Positions 4,375 to 55,980 of a DNA stretch of 64,000 nt are shown here, piece after piece (within the stretch, counting starts at the first letter, position 1; the number at the start of each line of letters is the position of its first letter). Under the pieces are notes generated by a model. The model had not been told where the DNA came from. It saw only the letters and a program-made list of their open reading frames with translations, and did not search any database. The position numbers were made by a program, and so were the translations under genes. Source of the DNA: Melioribacteraceae bacterium (GTDB taxonomy: Bacteria; Bacteroidota; Ignavibacteria; Ignavibacteriales; Melioribacteraceae); contig JAKIUC010000011.1 in assembly GCA_021647785.1 (NCBI GenBank), positions 1 through 64,000 of the forward strand. Reading direction: 5' to 3'.

Positions 4375-4410
4375 CACTAAATTGAAAAACCAATTATACA
4401 TGAGGAATAA

Positions 4411-6423
4411 ATGAAACAATTTTTACTTGTAGGAGTATTTTTAATTTTTGCTTTTGGAGTTGCTGCACAACAAAAAAGAGTAATTACTGTTGATGATTTA
4501 TGGGCAATGAAAAGAATAGGAAGTGTTGTTGTTTCACCAAATGGGGAGCATATTGCATTTTCTGTTACTCAATATTCAATGGAAGATAATTCTGGACAAA
4601 CGGATATTTACCTTATGAGTATTGACGGAGGTAATATTCGCCCAATTTTAGATTCAGAAGAAAATGAGAGCAGCCCAAGTTTTTCACCCGATGGGAGTAA
4701 ACTTACATATCAGTTTGATGGACAAATATGGCAATGCAATATTGATGGTACAGAGAAAGAGCAGCTAACAAATCTTTACACAGGTGCTTCAGGAATACGA
4801 TGGTCAAACGATGGAAGTAAAATTCTATTTGTCTCATCGGTATATCCCGACTGCACAACAGAAGATTGCAACAAGGAGAGAGATGAAGCAAAGGAGAGCA
4901 GCAAAGTAGAAGTTGAAGTCTTTACAGAATTGATGTATCGCCATTGGGATGACTGGCGTGGAGAGAAGCGCAGCCATCTTTTTATAATGGATTTAGAAAG
5001 TAAAGAGACTACGGATTTAACACTAAATAGTACATTCGATGTTCCTCCAATTGCTCTTGGCAGCAAAAATGATTACAACTTTTCGCCTGATGGAAGTGAA
5101 GTAGTATATACAATGAACAAAGATAAAATGCTTGCAACCAGTACTAACAACGATATTTTTGTTTTATCGTTGAATGGAAAAAGCAAGCCGCAGCAAATTT
5201 CTGTAAGCAAAGGGAACGACAATCAGCCTATCTATTCGCCCAATGGAAAATTTATTGCGTTCCGTTCAATGGCTCGTGCGGGGTTTGAATCTGACAAACG
5301 AACACTTGTTTTATATGACAGAGAGAGAAAAGAACTAAGTAACATCTCAGAACAATTGGATATCTCTATTGGACAAATGGTTTGGGCGGAAGATTCAAAA
5401 TCTATATTCTACACTGCTGCAAAGGAAATATACAATTCTATTTACAACATTAATATTGAAACAAAAGAGAACAGACTACTAATTAAAGAGGTTGCTGCAA
5501 GTGGATTAAATCTTGCAGGAAACAAATTAATTTTCAAAGCACAAAAATCTACTCTTCCGTTCGAGATTTTTAAAGCTAATTTTGATGGCAGTAAAATGGA
5601 GCAAATCACTTCCATCAATGCGTCGTTATTGGCTAATCTAAAAATGAATGATGTTGAAACATTCTGGAGTGATGGTCCTGAAAATGCTAAGGTGCAATCT
5701 ATAATTGTGAAACCGCCATTTTTTGATTCTACAAAAAAGTATCCTATGATATTCCTAATCCACGGTGGACCGCAAGGGCATTGGACTGACAACTTCCACT
5801 ACCGCTGGAACTTGCAGTTGTTTGCATCAAAAGGTTATGTTGTGGTTGCTCCAAATCCACGTGGCTCAACTGGTTACGGACAAGCCTTCACAGATGGCAT
5901 ATCTCAAGACTGGGCTGGAAAAGTTTACGAAGATTTAATGAACGCATACGAATATGCACTAACTAACTACAAGTTTATTGATAGAAACAACACATTTGCT
6001 GCTGGTGCTTCCTATGGAGGATATATGATTAATTGGATTGAGGGACACAATACAAAATTCAACGCACTTGTAAATCACGATGGAGTTTATAATCTTGAAA
6101 GTATGTATGGCACTACAGAAGAATTGTGGTTTCCAGAATGGGAGATGGGCGGAACCCCTTGGGAAAACAGGGAGTTATACCGAAAGTGGTCGCCAAGCGA
6201 GTTTGTAGAGAATTTCAAAACTCCAATGTTAATTGTTCACGGAGGTATGGATTTTAGAGTTCCCGAAGGTCAAGCATTTGAACTCTTTACAGCATTGCAG
6301 AAAATGGGTGTTGATTCTAAATTTATCTATTTTCCGAAAGAGTCTCATTTTGTATTGAAGCCGCAAAATGCTAAATTTTGGTGGAACAGTATTTTTAATT
6401 GGTTTGAAGAATATAAGAGGTAA
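4411..6423 (+). CDS. Secreted S9 family peptidase (prolyl oligopeptidase / dipeptidyl peptidase type)
   Basis: This 670-residue protein has an N-terminal signal peptide ending A-A-Q, a seven-bladed TolB/DPP-like propeller with repeated 'S-P-D-G-S' blade motifs (about residues 30-400), and a C-terminal alpha/beta-hydrolase domain. The nucleophile elbow is G-A-S-Y-G-G (Ser534), the acid is Asp614 in G-G-M-D-F-R-V-P, and the base is His646 in K-E-S-H-F. The oxyanion motif H-G-G-P is also present. S9 enzymes cleave short peptides, often after Pro or as acyl-aminoacyl or dipeptidyl peptidases; the exact specificity cannot be read here. It probably acts in the periplasm in peptide use. The gene is followed after 5 bases by the DUF1232 gene. 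Confidence 0.92.
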   Translation: MKQFLLVGVFLIFAFGVAAQQKRVITVDDLWAMKRIGSVVVSPNGEHIAFSVTQYSMEDNSGQTDIYLMSIDGGNIRPILDSEENESSPSFSPDGSKLTYQFDGQIWQCNIDGTEKEQLTNLYTGASGIRWSNDGSKILFVSSVYPDCTTEDCNKERDEAKESSKVEVEVFTELMYRHWDDWRGEKRSHLFIMDLESKETTDLTLNSTFDVPPIALGSKNDYNFSPDGSEVVYTMNKDKMLATSTNNDIFVLSLNGKSKPQQISVSKGNDNQPIYSPNGKFIAFRSMARAGFESDKRTLVLYDRERKELSNISEQLDISIGQMVWAEDSKSIFYTAAKEIYNSIYNINIETKENRLLIKEVAASGLNLAGNKLIFKAQKSTLPFEIFKANFDGSKMEQITSINASLLANLKMNDVETFWSDGPENAKVQSIIVKPPFFDSTKKYPMIFLIHGGPQGHWTDNFHYRWNLQLFASKGYVVVAPNPRGSTGYGQAFTDGISQDWAGKVYEDLMNAYEYALTNYKFIDRNNTFAAGASYGGYMINWIEGHNTKFNALVNHDGVYNLESMYGTTEELWFPEWEMGGTPWENRELYRKWSPSEFVENFKTPMLIVHGGMDFRVPEGQAFELFTALQKMGVDSKFIYFPKESHFVLKPQNAKFWWNSIFNWFEEYKR

Positions 6424-51642: not shown

Positions 51643-53229
51643 CTAATTATTATTAAACCGAACGCCAATATAATTATTAATTTCAGTCAGTGTTGAAATC
51701 TCTTGGGATGAATTTCCACTGCGAATATAGAATTTCTCCATTTTGTTTCCATTTTTATCGGTTGTTTTAAAGAATAGAGGATACTCTCCCTTTGCAATTT
51801 TAATTATACAAACCTCTTTATTATCCAGTGTTAGAAAGCTAATTACAAGTTTTCGTGCAGTATATCTAACAGTAAAAGTTGCGTTAATTAAATTGCGCAA
51901 ATGGAGTTCAAAATAATCTGAGTTCTGTTTCTTTAATGTGGAGTAGTCGTTTTGCAAACCGAGAACGTTGTTATCATCATCAATTCCGATAACAAGATAG
52001 CCCCCTTCCGCATTGTTGAAAGCAGAAATTGACTTGACGATAATTTCCTCCATCTTTTTATTTACTCTCTCTTCTCTGTAATCCCAACGGAGTGAGGACT
52101 TAAGTTCAAACCGTTCAGTTTCACCCTCATCAAGAAATTGATGTAACTCTTCATAAGATAGTCGGCTTGTAGAAATTGCTTTTGCTTTCTTCTTTTTCCA
52201 GATAAAAATGAAAGTGATTAAAATTATTGATGCTAATAAAAATCCAACCAGCAAATATGTATTAAATAGATATGCAAAAATTAAATCGGCTTCTGTAATA
52301 ATAACCCCAAGTTGAAGTTTGCTGAAGTACATATTTATTGGGTCAACCTGTGCCCACCATTTATCCTCATTAATATTTAATGCAAAAGAAACCGAGTCGC
52401 TTCCAAGTTTTGTCCAATTATCCATGAATGAAATAATTACAGAATCTTGTATGTTATCACGAGTAAATGCCCTATCCACATCTCTCGAAGCCCCATCGTT
52501 GTTGGCTATGATAGGAAGGATATGACTATTATGATTTAGCAAAAATATTTTAGGATTTGAATATAATTTAATTTCAGGAATGGAGGAAACCAAATTGTTT
52601 GCTTTAACACCAATTGCGAGACCAAATATTTTATTAGTGCTATCAGAGTTTCCAAATGTAACAGCATCAATTTCACCTTTTGAAAAATCGCTCATTCCTC
52701 GAAGATTGAACCAGAAAATACTATCGGTACGAGCATCTTTCTTAAAATATTTAATCCAGTTTACACGAACGGGGTCGTACTCAACGGCTTCTTTCCATTG
52801 CCCAACCATAGTGGAAGCATCTTTCCATCTTTTCCATACTATTTCATTATTAAAGGTTTTTTCAATTCTGAATGCTGAGACAAATGTTTCTTTATCCTTA
52901 TAAATTAAGTATTGTCTCCCATCTCTATCAAAATATTTGATAGACGATATTTTTGGAGTACTAGATAAAATTGGAATAAAATATTTATTTAATCCACTCT
53001 CGTTAGTGTAGTCAAAAGAATTATCAATTCTATCATTTTTAATATCGGAGAGTTGTTTTGAAATAGGATTTAAATAATCACTTATTTCCTTTTCCGTTTG
53101 TTCGGTTGTGGTAGAAATTAATTGTTCAGTAAATATTGATTGGGTGTCAAATAATATAATAGAGACAGCAAGTAAAAGAAGAAGAATTACTATTCCGCTA
53201 TATGTTAATGTTTGATTTGAGAAAGTCAT
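51643..53229 (-). CDS. Membrane receptor with cache-like sensor and cytoplasmic Schlafen AlbA_2 domain
   Basis: This 528-residue protein has an N-terminal transmembrane helix (about residues 11-30), an extracytoplasmic domain to about 315 with cache-like features ('I-S-S-I-K-Y-F-D-R-D-G-R'), and a second helix (about 317-341). A basic linker (K-K-K-K-A-K) precedes the AlbA_2/Schlafen domain from about residue 360: 'E-T-E-R-F-E-L-K-S-S', 'F-N-N-A-E-G-G-Y-L-V-I-G-I-D-D' and 'P-L-F-F-K'. AlbA_2 domains usually belong to cytoplasmic proteins tied to nucleic-acid or defence functions. Here one is placed where a kinase or cyclase output would be. No histidine kinase motifs exist. It is a single gene with its own promoter. 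Confidence 0.8.
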   Translation of the reverse strand: MTFSNQTLTYSGIVILLLLLAVSIILFDTQSIFTEQLISTTTEQTEKEISDYLNPISKQLSDIKNDRIDNSFDYTNESGLNKYFIPILSSTPKISSIKYFDRDGRQYLIYKDKETFVSAFRIEKTFNNEIVWKRWKDASTMVGQWKEAVEYDPVRVNWIKYFKKDARTDSIFWFNLRGMSDFSKGEIDAVTFGNSDSTNKIFGLAIGVKANNLVSSIPEIKLYSNPKIFLLNHNSHILPIIANNDGASRDVDRAFTRDNIQDSVIISFMDNWTKLGSDSVSFALNINEDKWWAQVDPINMYFSKLQLGVIITEADLIFAYLFNTYLLVGFLLASIILITFIFIWKKKKAKAISTSRLSYEELHQFLDEGETERFELKSSLRWDYREERVNKKMEEIIVKSISAFNNAEGGYLVIGIDDDNNVLGLQNDYSTLKKQNSDYFELHLRNLINATFTVRYTARKLVISFLTLDNKEVCIIKIAKGEYPLFFKTTDKNGNKMEKFYIRSGNSSQEISTLTEINNYIGVRFNNN

Positions 53230-53265: not shown

Positions 53266-53829
53266 TTAACCATCCTGCTTCCACTTAATATTACACCCTA
53301 CACTTGGAAGTTGATTTTCATCAACTTCTTTTCCAGCAAGTATTGCATCAATGGCATTTCGGATATCCCTTCCTGTAACAGGCATTTCCAAACTTGGACG
53401 AGAACCATCCAACTGCCCACGATAGACTAATTTTAATTCAGAATCGAAAAGAAAAAAATCTGGAGTACATGTTGCATCGTATGCCTTTGCTACATCTTGC
53501 GTTTCGTCAAATAAATATGGGAAAGAGTATCCTAATTCTGCTGCGTGTTTTTTCATTAACTCTGGTGAATCTTGCGGATAATTTTCAACATCGTTTGAGC
53601 TAATAGCAACAAATCCAACACCAAGCCTACTATAATCATTTTCAAGTTTTACTAATTCATGATTAACATGTAAAACAAATGGACAGTGATTGCAGATAAA
53701 CATAACTAATGTTGCTTTCTCTCCTTTTACATCTTTCAATGAAAGCAATTTCCCTGTTGTGGTATCTATTAGATTAAACTCTGGGGCAATTGTTCCGAGT
53801 GGTAACATATTTGATGGTGTCTGTGACAT
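53266..53829 (-). CDS. Thioredoxin-fold redoxin (AhpC/TSA type)
   Basis: The 187-residue protein has the redoxin pattern 'A-P-E-F-N-L-I-D', 'L-V-M-F-I-C-N-H-C-P-F-V' (C-x-x-C active site C-N-H-C), the cis-Pro segment 'T-C-T-P-D-F-F-L-F' and 'Y-R-G-Q-L-D-G-S-R-P'. No signal peptide is seen, so it is cytoplasmic. Proteins of this subgroup are annotated as thioredoxin-family peroxiredoxin-like; the natural substrate is unknown. It is 36 bases upstream of the receptor gene on the same strand and may share its transcript. Confidence 0.9.
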   Translation of the reverse strand: MSQTPSNMLPLGTIAPEFNLIDTTTGKLLSLKDVKGEKATLVMFICNHCPFVLHVNHELVKLENDYSRLGVGFVAISSNDVENYPQDSPELMKKHAAELGYSFPYLFDETQDVAKAYDATCTPDFFLFDSELKLVYRGQLDGSRPSLEMPVTGRDIRNAIDAILAGKEVDENQLPSVGCNIKWKQDG

Positions 53830-53949: not shown

Positions 53950-55980
53950 ATGAGTATTGAAGAATTAAGAGATAAAATAAATAGTGTTGACACAGAACTA
54001 ATAGACCTGCTTGCGAAACGACGCGGATTAAGTAAGGAAGTAATTCAAGATAAAAACGACAACAAAAACCCTATTAGAGATCAGAAGCGTGAAGAAGAAC
54101 TTCTAAAAAGATTAATAAAACTTGGGAAGCAGAAGGGTGTTGACCAACATTTTTTAACAAAAGTTTTTTATGAAATTATTGAAGACTCTATACGCTTGCA
54201 ACAAAGTCACATTCTTAATCCTTCCAAAGAAGTGACTGGAAAAGAGAGATTAACAATTGCGATACAAGGCATTGAAGGTGCATACAGTTACCTTGCCTCG
54301 CAGAAATATTTTGCTTATTCCAACAAAGAGTTAGAGTTTGTTTCAAAGAAAAGATTTTCTGAAGTTGTTGAAGCTGTTGAAAAAGGTGAAGCTGACTATG
54401 CTGTGCTTCCAATTGAAAACACAACATCAGGCGGTATTAACGAAGTTTACGATTTACTGCTTCACACAACCCTTACTATTGTTGGGGAAGAGACCTTTCA
54501 GGTAAAGCATTGCCTTGTTGCATCTGCGGATGTCTCGGTTCATAAAATCAAAAAAATATATGCTCACTATCAAGCCGCAGCTCAATGTAGTAATTTTTTA
54601 GTAACACTTCCTGAAGCACGAATTGAATACTTTGCTGATACAGCAATGTCAGTTCAAAAAATTGCTGAGGAAAAGAATCCGGAATTTGCAGCTATTGCAA
54701 GTGAAGAAGCAGCAAATTTATTTAAAGTAAATATTATTAGAAAAGAAATTGCAAATCAGGAGGAAAACCATACTCGATTTTTGATTATTGCAAGAAACAT
54801 TTCAAAAGTTGATAATCGTCTCCCAGCAAAGACATCGTTGGTTATGGCAACTTCGCATGCTCCAGGCTCGTTGGTTAAAGCCCTATCTGTATTTGATGCT
54901 TATAAAATTAATTTAACAAAACTTGAATCACGTCCTATTCTTGGAAACCCTTGGGAACAGATGTTTTATGTGGATTTTGAGGGAAACAGAGATGATGAAA
55001 ATGTTCAAAATTTACTTGATGATTTAGGACCATATCTTAGATTTTTTAAAGTGCTCGGAAGTTATCCTTCACAAGTTGTGAAAAAAACAAAATTAGATTT
55101 GCATGAAAGCGTTGATGTAAAGGATGATGCTTATGTAGAAAAAATCAAAGAAATTCAAAAACCAATTGTTAAGAAAAAAGCTAAAGCAAAGAGTTATAAA
55201 TTAGCAAGCCGTGAATATAAAGAGGATGATACAATAGTAAAAGTTCGCGATGTTGAAATAGGCGGCGATGACTTTGTTGTTATTGGTGGTCCCTGTTCTG
55301 TGGAATCGGAATCTCAAATATTTTCATGTGCTAATGAAGTAAAAGTAAATGGTGCACAAATATTAAGAGGCGGTTGTTTTAAACCACGTACATCGCCATA
55401 TAGCTTTCAGGGCTTGGAGTGGGACGGCTTAAATTACCTTGAAGCTGCTGGTAAAGAATATGATTTACCTGTAATTACAGAGGTTCTGGCACCAGAGCAA
55501 GTTCTGGCTGTTGCAAAGCAATCCGATATTATTCAAATTGGTGCAAGAAACATGCAGAATTTTTCGTTACTTAAAGAGGCAGGAAAAGTTCACCGTCCAG
55601 TTTTATTAAAGCGTGGAATGATGTCTTCGATAGATGAATTACTAAATGCTGCGGAGTATATTCTTGCTCAGGGAAATAGACAAGTAATTTTAATGGAGCG
55701 AGGAATTAGAACATTTGAAACAGCTACCCGCAACACTCTTGATTTAAGTGCAATTCCTGTTCTTAAAGAATTAACTCACCTTCCAATTATGGTAGATCCC
55801 TCTCATGCAATAGGGGAGCGGGATAAAGTTGCACCAATGGCATTGGCTTCAAAAATTGTTGGTGCTCACGGAATTATGGTTGAGTTTCATCCTGAACCAG
55901 AAAAGGCTTTGAGTGATGGACCACAAGCACTACGGTATCCACAATTTGCTCAGTTGATGATTGACTTGAAAAAACTTTAA
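53950..55980 (+). CDS. Trifunctional chorismate mutase / prephenate dehydratase / DAHP synthase
   Basis: The 676-residue fusion holds an AroQ-type chorismate mutase (residues about 1-85, 'L-R-D-K-I-N-S-V-D', 'L-L-A-K-R'). A prephenate dehydratase follows (about 98-280, 'G-A-Y-S-Y', 'N-H-T-R-F' with the T-R-F motif near 274), then an ACT domain (about 293-370) with the phenylalanine-binding E-S-R-P at 326-329. A Lys/Ala linker leads to a type I-beta DAHP synthase (about 415-676, 'G-G-P-C-S-V-E' near 443, '[11 protein letters not shown]', 'V-D-P-S-H-A-I-G'). Together these are the entry and the last phenylalanine-branch steps of aromatic amino-acid synthesis. Phe bound to ACT could inhibit both ends. 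A terminator follows. Confidence 0.95.

Follow-up and report, generated by a model that had tools for sequence, protein, structure and literature searches.

Can a single membrane protein carry a signal from outside the cell directly to nucleic acid? The question is raised by a gene on a 64,000-nucleotide stretch of a Melioribacteraceae genome (hereafter the window; contig JAKIUC010000011.1 of assembly GCA_021647785.1). Bacterial receptors typically end in kinases, cyclases, phosphodiesterases, chemotaxis or DNA-binding domains. The initial annotation, made from the sequence alone, described a sensor with a Schlafen-type AlbA_2 domain as output and proposed two roles for it, a one-protein path to RNA or DNA and a membrane-bound defence receptor. 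We favour a one-component transmembrane receptor that controls an RNase-like output, and put the chance of this reading at about one in two; it includes the activity, ligand and target that we infer below.

The predicted anatomy puts sensor and output on opposite sides of the membrane (Table 1). Hydropathy analysis placed a loop of ~300 residues between two strong membrane helices (~8–26 and ~326–344), and the AlphaFold model agreed on both helices. A predicted extracytoplasmic domain of the size usual in dCache receptors (~250–300 residues) is therefore flanked by two membrane helices, as the initial annotation had proposed. A Lys-rich edge, KKKKAK, directly follows the second helix and, by the positive-inside rule, would place AlbA_2 in the cytoplasm. 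Thus hydropathy, model and Pfam together support the layout of one protein with its sensor outside and AlbA_2 inside. A pattern scan of genome contigs returned 79 loci (among them the contigs of three relatives with 81, 56 and 39% identity to the receptor, L027–L029), and hydropathy revealed two helices around a loop of 270–310 residues in 39 of the 79, a share that is not a frequency since the complete dCache-AlbA_2 protein served as seed of the scan. In this hydropathy scan L053 had one helix only, and the helix pair of L072, a GmrSD protein, was spurious. Since the layout is kept in the three relatives and in these 39 loci, it is not due to chance. The last helix ends 26 residues before E370 in the window protein and 21–35 residues before it in the dCache-type loci; Pfam listed no HAMP domain, either in the window protein or among the families of 80 aligned rows. 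An NCBIfam search of the receptor gave no match, and PADLOC gave a sole weak match to an oligonucleotide-cyclase profile (E 0.041). No partner kinase is adjacent, in agreement with the annotation: the neighbours encode a redoxin, a GNAT acetyltransferase, a methyltransferase, an M20 peptidase and, by eye, an aromatic-acid pathway fusion.

Table 1. Features of the receptor locus in window coordinates.
Feature	Position	Strand	Basis
dCache-AlbA_2 receptor gene (P0001), 528 aa, ATG start	51643..53229	-	ORF; relatives at 81, 56 and 39% identity
Membrane helix 1, residues ~8-28	53146..53208	-	Hydropathy peak 2.67; AlphaFold helix 3-30
Predicted extracytoplasmic dCache sensor, residues ~29-322	52264..53145	-	AlphaFold model, VIA-align, Foldseek, HisKA_2 kinase relatives
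Membrane helix 2, residues ~326-345	52195..52254	-	Hydropathy 2.79; AlphaFold helix 313-350
Short cytoplasmic linker, residues ~346-369	52123..52194	-	Pfam: no HAMP or PAS
AlbA_2 (SLFN_AlbA_2, PF04326) output domain, residues 370-511	51697..52122	-	Pfam E=1.8e-19; Foldseek to 3lmm
E370-x4-E375 motif, residues 1 and 2 of putative catalytic triad	52105..52122	-	Conserved rows; equivalence to rSLFN13 E205/E210
D418, residue 3 of putative triad	51976..51978	-	Conserved rows; phmmer against chain 5yd0
Redoxin gene, 36 bases upstream of receptor, same strand	53266..53829	-	Redoxin E=7.1e-19

The AlphaFold model of the receptor, built from an alignment of 42 rows, reached a mean pLDDT of 85.1, and two stretches of the sensor (~151–200 and ~241–260) were of lower confidence (pLDDT 47–75). 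Its pTM was 0.62, so the relative placement of sensor and AlbA_2 is uninformative. The top VIA-align match was the kinase sensor soHK1S-Z6 (3lic; Z 16.8, rmsd 3.5, 244 residues aligned); the 50 matches listed (Z 13.5–16.8) were kinase and chemoreceptor sensor domains and lay over residues 25–322. Foldseek gave the same picture, with the kinase sensor 3lid (E 2.6e-7) and the chemoreceptor Tlp3 (E 6.7e-7) among matches which, as far as listed, were mostly chemoreceptor and histidine-kinase sensor domains. What had been called a cache-like domain can thus be specified: by its predicted fold, the extracytoplasmic part is a double Cache (dCache) sensor, and by analogy it would bind a small molecule. 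At the level of sequence, none of the Pfam Cache models matched the receptor at E≤1, two of the 80 aligned rows matched dCache_1 at E≤0.01, and the related sensor of L121 did so at 3.8e-8, below the cut-off. The fold comparison covered the window protein, and all other loci were assigned as dCache-type by their hydropathy layout. Both the N-terminal sensor and the AlbA_2 fold passed the check by structure prediction for which the annotation had called.

The output domain was identified by Pfam as SLFN_AlbA_2 (PF04326) over residues 370–511 (70.8 bits versus a cut-off of 25.3, E=1.8e-19), the only family above its cut-off in the receptor. Blocks between residues 361 and 520 were modelled at pLDDT 84–95, and Foldseek matched this part over 160 columns to 3lmm (E 2.0e-5), which we take to be an AlbA_2 protein. 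Since the sensor domain alone fills the VIA-align list, the assignment rests on Pfam, phmmer and the 3lmm match, and these bear out the cytoplasmic AlbA_2 output. The receptor has a single AlbA_2 stretch and not the two-lobed, pseudo-dimeric N-terminal core of the SLFN11/13 type; we therefore file it under the AlbA_2 family and not as a Schlafen protein.

Does this domain keep the residues of a nuclease? The tRNase SLFN13 requires E205, E210 and D248 in rat numbering, according to PMC5862951. In chain 5yd0, labelled Schlafen 8, E-x4-E is found in the motif ESASIEFK, and the second Asp of GVDD follows at +38 from the second Glu, so that motif and spacing fit E205/E210/D248. We take this chain to be the rat SLFN13 of that study. 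By motif and spacing, E370 and E375 in the window motif ETERFELK match the Glu pair of SLFN13. With phmmer, D418 aligned with the second Asp of GVDD (D248 by spacing), and the two Glu stayed unaligned with the pair of 5yd0 because of a longer segment after the motif in the receptor. In alignment A2, which spans dCache, SBP_bac_3, GmrSD, receiver and other layouts, the triad was invariant (E370 in 80/80, E375 in 80/80 and D418 in 79/79 ungapped rows); K399 was kept in 78/79 and R503 in 77/77. All five residues lie outside the search patterns of the scan. We set aside the invariance of KSSLRWDY (K377–Y384) in the 79 loci, as this is one of the two search patterns; other genomes carry the variants KSTLRWDL and KSSLQWDV. 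In SAMD9L, two residues of the AlbA_2 triad are required for the antiviral effect and for translation repression (PMC11221667). The receptor shares the AlbA_2 domain and the Glu-Glu-Asp triad with the Schlafen RNases SLFN11/12/13/14 and with SAMD9/9L, but differs from them in having one AlbA_2 domain instead of a two-lobed core, and in being bacterial, membrane-anchored and linked to a sensor.

The genome of the window holds ten AlbA_2 matches, and among the eight loci examined the receptor is the only one with the two-helix layout in the frames read, of which those at L005 and L006 are interrupted by stops. Soluble paralogues with a complete triad occur at L001 and L004 and, by eye, at L002. 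Since the triad is thus not confined to receptors, its presence alone is no proof of cleavage. At two other soluble paralogues (L007:169-1827 and L008:1489-2868) both Glu are kept and an Asn occupies the position of the triad Asp. The annotated action on RNA or DNA is plausible and, as the catalytic triad of SLFN13 is intact, can be narrowed to a putative RNase-like one.

Since the domain is of Schlafen type and has a complete Glu-Glu-Asp triad, RNA cleavage is its most likely action. We propose a small-molecule ligand for the dCache domain, which would lie outside the inner membrane; ligand binding would alter the packing of a receptor dimer, as in dCache receptors in general. The signal would then pass through the two membrane helices and the short linker, without a HAMP domain, and alter how two cytoplasmic AlbA_2 domains pair or how active they are. 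Activity would need dimerisation, since there is one AlbA_2 domain here as opposed to the pseudo-dimeric core of SLFN13. The result may be metal-dependent cleavage of RNA, with tRNA as a first guess, and translation would be slowed when the outside condition changes.

The initial annotation saw AlbA_2 in the place of a kinase, and this idea was strengthened by sensors homologous to that of the receptor. In genomes G151 and G193 the A3 profile matched the sensor part only (4–350, E 1.0e-31; 8–350, E 9.6e-27), and the remainder of these proteins is a HisKA_2 histidine kinase (E 3.5e-21; 6.2e-23). The homologous two-helix sensor thus sits on the HisKA_2 kinases L121 and L127 in two other genomes. 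With dCache kinases and chemoreceptors (3lic, PctA, Tlp3) the receptor shares the extracytoplasmic dCache fold, and its sensor is homologous to that of L121/L127; instead of a kinase, cyclase or methyl-accepting output, however, it ends in AlbA_2, and Pfam shows no HAMP domain.

Conversely, AlbA_2 is found behind other inputs. Among the 80 AlbA_2 rows, Pfam identified SBP_bac_3 in 11, GmrSD_N in 10 and Response_reg in 2. The domain exchange therefore runs both ways, with AlbA_2 moving between inputs and the sensor between outputs, and AlbA_2 seems to occupy the output position of signalling proteins. The two receiver fusions (L048:5596-6501 and L054:87-992) have both domains above their cut-offs, and by eye their receivers hold the Asp, Thr and Lys, which makes them response regulators with an AlbA_2 output. 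SBP_bac_3, a membrane helix and AlbA_2 are combined at L074, L076–L079, L082–L085, L091, L093 and L096, all in records labelled Bacteroidota. GmrSD-type proteins carry a C-terminal AlbA_2 at L064, L069, L071–L073, L080, L092, L094, L095 and L103, in records from several bacterial phyla and one titled archaeon. Eight further loci, labelled by hand, have short membrane parts with two helices (6) or several (2). At L124:1135-2040, an open frame of 302 aa, cNMP_binding (E 4.6e-11) is fused to AlbA_2. Two weaker cases are L014:721-1971, where AlbA_2 follows a KaiA_N match below its cut-off (E 0.0058), perhaps a pseudo-receiver, and L101:3880-6483, where 868 aa comprise a HARE-HTH-like part below its cut-off (E 3.1e-5) and a C-terminal AlbA_2. 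Among further AlbA_2 relatives, a type I restriction R-subunit domain occurs in L122, and in L126 GmrSD_N scores below its cut-off.

A quick tree was calculated from 79 of the 80 AlbA_2 rows (L087 was too short and was dropped; L122, L124 and L126 are absent) and drawn with a midpoint root. With 32 of its 76 inner forks open and architecture labels that are partly manual (12 SBP_bac_3 by hand versus 11 by Pfam; the 5'-cut L066 labelled dCache), the seven labels needed 9 changes, compared with a possible minimum of 6 and a mean of 35.8 after shuffling. All 41 dCache-type rows fell into one clade of 49 rows (97 SH-aLRT). Besides these the clade holds both receiver proteins and five out of ten GmrSD fusions; no SBP_bac_3 row is part of it. 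The branches starred in the tree require the GmrSD label to change at least twice. Only tentatively do we extend this to AlbA_2 as a general signalling output of prokaryotes, a receptor-controlled RNase module driven by dCache, SBP_bac_3, receiver and cyclic-nucleotide domains. If that held, bacteria would have a direct path from an outside ligand to the cleavage of RNA (tRNA), without kinase or transcription factor, and with it a class of signal output beside kinases, cyclases, chemotaxis domains and DNA-binding domains. The natural variants with SBP_bac_3, receiver and cNMP inputs are further means by which activity could be switched.

The receiver fusions also resemble response regulators with a nucleic-acid output, and thereby fit a receptor whose dCache signal alters AlbA_2 binding without cleavage, in the manner of CadC or ToxR. 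AlbA_2 has been described as DNA-binding (PMC6299218 and PMC5445408), and transmembrane transcription regulators are reported as widespread in bacteria and archaea (PMC10269533). We nevertheless consider such a membrane-tethered regulator rather unlikely, although it ranks next after the RNase-like output: the three acidic residues that are invariant in A2 are not obviously needed for pure binding, and Pfam shows no DNA-binding domain besides AlbA_2 and no helix-turn-helix match. Outside two synteny blocks described below, the neighbour clusters common to at least four loci appeared generic on inspection, and none of their genes suggests itself as a regulated target. With the CadC/ToxR-type regulators described there (PMC10269533) the receptor shares a one-protein path from an outside signal to a nucleic-acid domain, but their output is a helix-turn-helix, whereas AlbA_2 is likely to be RNase-like and not transcriptional.

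Returning to an RNase-like output, the pieces of such a receptor and its nearest parallels have each been described before: RNases of the AlbA_2 type, receptors with a dCache sensor, a Schlafen nuclease tethered to a membrane and transmembrane transcription regulators. The tethered nuclease is PUCH (TOFU-1, TOFU-2 and SLFL-3/4) of C. elegans, which has in common with the receptor a Schlafen-fold nuclease tethered by a transmembrane helix (PMC10567574). It differs as a three-protein piRNA processor on mitochondria whose tether is the C-terminal helix of another subunit, and the available text describes no sensor domain. Our literature search, with bioRxiv and most subscription papers outside its coverage, found no publication that names Schlafen together with a Cache domain, and for Schlafen with histidine kinase and two-component it returned, within the same coverage, the BREX paper PMC12839542 alone. 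If our reading is correct, a ligand outside the cell would act on RNA at once via a Schlafen-type RNase output. It would also link the ancestry of the animal antiviral Schlafen/SAMD9 domain to ordinary bacterial sensing as well as defence.

How widespread is the receptor? Copies covering most of the protein's length were present in 4 of 97 genomes of relatives, the window's own included, namely the window's own (G000), G002 (81% identity), G029 (56%, running past its contig end) and G030 (39%). In a sample spread evenly over the phylum (395 genomes), the full-length form was detected in the window's own genome only, and in a class sample in 2 of 391, the own genome and G030; for both samples the rows shown scored no more than three candidates from any one genome, and misses are possible. 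The records with dCache layout carry the labels Bacteroidota, Ignavibacteriales or Chlorobiota, and spirochaetes. Within the genus of the window, G000 and G002 have the intact gene and G003 has a remnant; no copy was found in G001 or G004. Owing to this patchy presence, the receptor is an accessory gene in the genus. The remnant (L174, G003:C467:6500-11647, at ~4391–4695) is a broken C-terminal part that tblastn recovered as two fragments, and this stretch of G003 yielded no match to the sensor part.

In other, mostly Bacteroidota-labelled loci the gene has a fixed place. We found a block ruvB-queG-receptor-SSF-tadA (names assigned by eye) with queG in 17 loci, ruvB in 16, SSF in 17 and tadA in 16, and in 16 loci 0–64 bases separate queG from the first ATG of the receptor. 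We considered queG and tadA as a hint at a tRNA target and dropped this idea after a control with queG in the 395 phylum genomes (371 with a match; 30 loci returned and examined with flanks of 1.5 kb per side). There, ruvB lay beside queG in 24 of 30 loci, some of them edge pieces, while SSF and tadA (0/30) and a receptor match (0/30) did not occur. Since ruvB accompanies queG without the receptor, the two are an old pair with the receptor behind it, and the synteny speaks for a gene settled stably in the chromosome, without bearing out a function in tRNA.

Across 16 of the 17 synteny loci (L038 was left out), mean pairwise identity was 71% for AlbA_2 and 40% for the sensor; the neighbours reached 63% (queG), 67% (tadA, 15 loci), 74% (SSF, 14 loci) and 84% (ruvB, 15 loci). 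Receptors commonly combine a well-kept output with a sensor that drifts. That AlbA_2 is better conserved than the sensor speaks against a role as a mere dimerisation or scaffolding piece that signals through an unseen partner and has no part in nucleic-acid work. The acidic and basic residues that are kept beyond the search pattern (triad, K399, R503) fit nucleic-acid work instead, and we regard the scaffold as very improbable, even though the receptor has no known partner or substrate and PMC11221667 attributes multimerisation properties to AlbA_2 domains.

Stable residence bears as well on the second role proposed by the initial annotation, a membrane-bound anti-phage receptor that would sense infection or envelope damage outside and let AlbA_2 cut tRNA to abort infection. 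AlbA_2 also serves within defence systems or close to them, as the GmrSD fusions in the clade and BREX-linked Schlafen RNases demonstrate. GmrSD proteins with a related AlbA_2 make up 10 of the 80 rows, five of them inside the 49-row dCache clade, L122 combines it with a type I restriction R-subunit domain, and the presence in the genus is patchy. The Schlafen RNases reported to be linked to BREX are credited with the ability to work as defence modules (PMC12839542); they share with the receptor a Schlafen RNase domain with a regulatory module, but sit at BREX core loci, whereas the receptor has two membrane helices, a dCache sensor and no defence locus around it. Among ten neighbours, PADLOC profiles matched the methyltransferase (partially, to mads_2) and a subtilase, and no complete defence system was found among the ten. 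The search of phage records for the receptor gave no match, and none of 183 IMG/VR stretches fitting two short patterns encodes a relative. Ten plasmid records were returned, but their best places cover the AlbA_2 part only, and of the top three, two carry a DUF262 annotation. Together with the ruvB-queG-x-SSF-tadA block in 16–17 related loci, and with a dCache small-molecule sensor that would be unusual for sensing infection, these results leave little support for the defence receptor. Its kinship with the five GmrSD fusions and its patchiness in the genus stand, and we judge it improbable.

Within the window, the redoxin gene and the receptor might form a conserved operon. We rejected this candidate as a conserved unit: the two genes lie ~0.6 kb apart in G002, and G001, G003 and G004 have the redoxin without an adjacent receptor. 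Co-transcription in the window is possible, as distinct from a conserved partnership. G001 and G004 keep the redoxin together with its upstream neighbour, and the 4073 (G001) and 4860 (G004) bases on the receptor's side of it contain no receptor, GNAT, methyltransferase or peptidase genes. Elsewhere in the window, a protein of 676 aa (53950-55980) comprises, by eye, chorismate mutase, prephenate dehydratase and DAHP-synthase-like parts; PADLOC gave no match for it. Four flavobacterial loci (L056, L057, L060 and L066) share a block of their own around the receptor, in which an RNase Y gene, identified by eye, lies ~1 kb downstream on the other strand.
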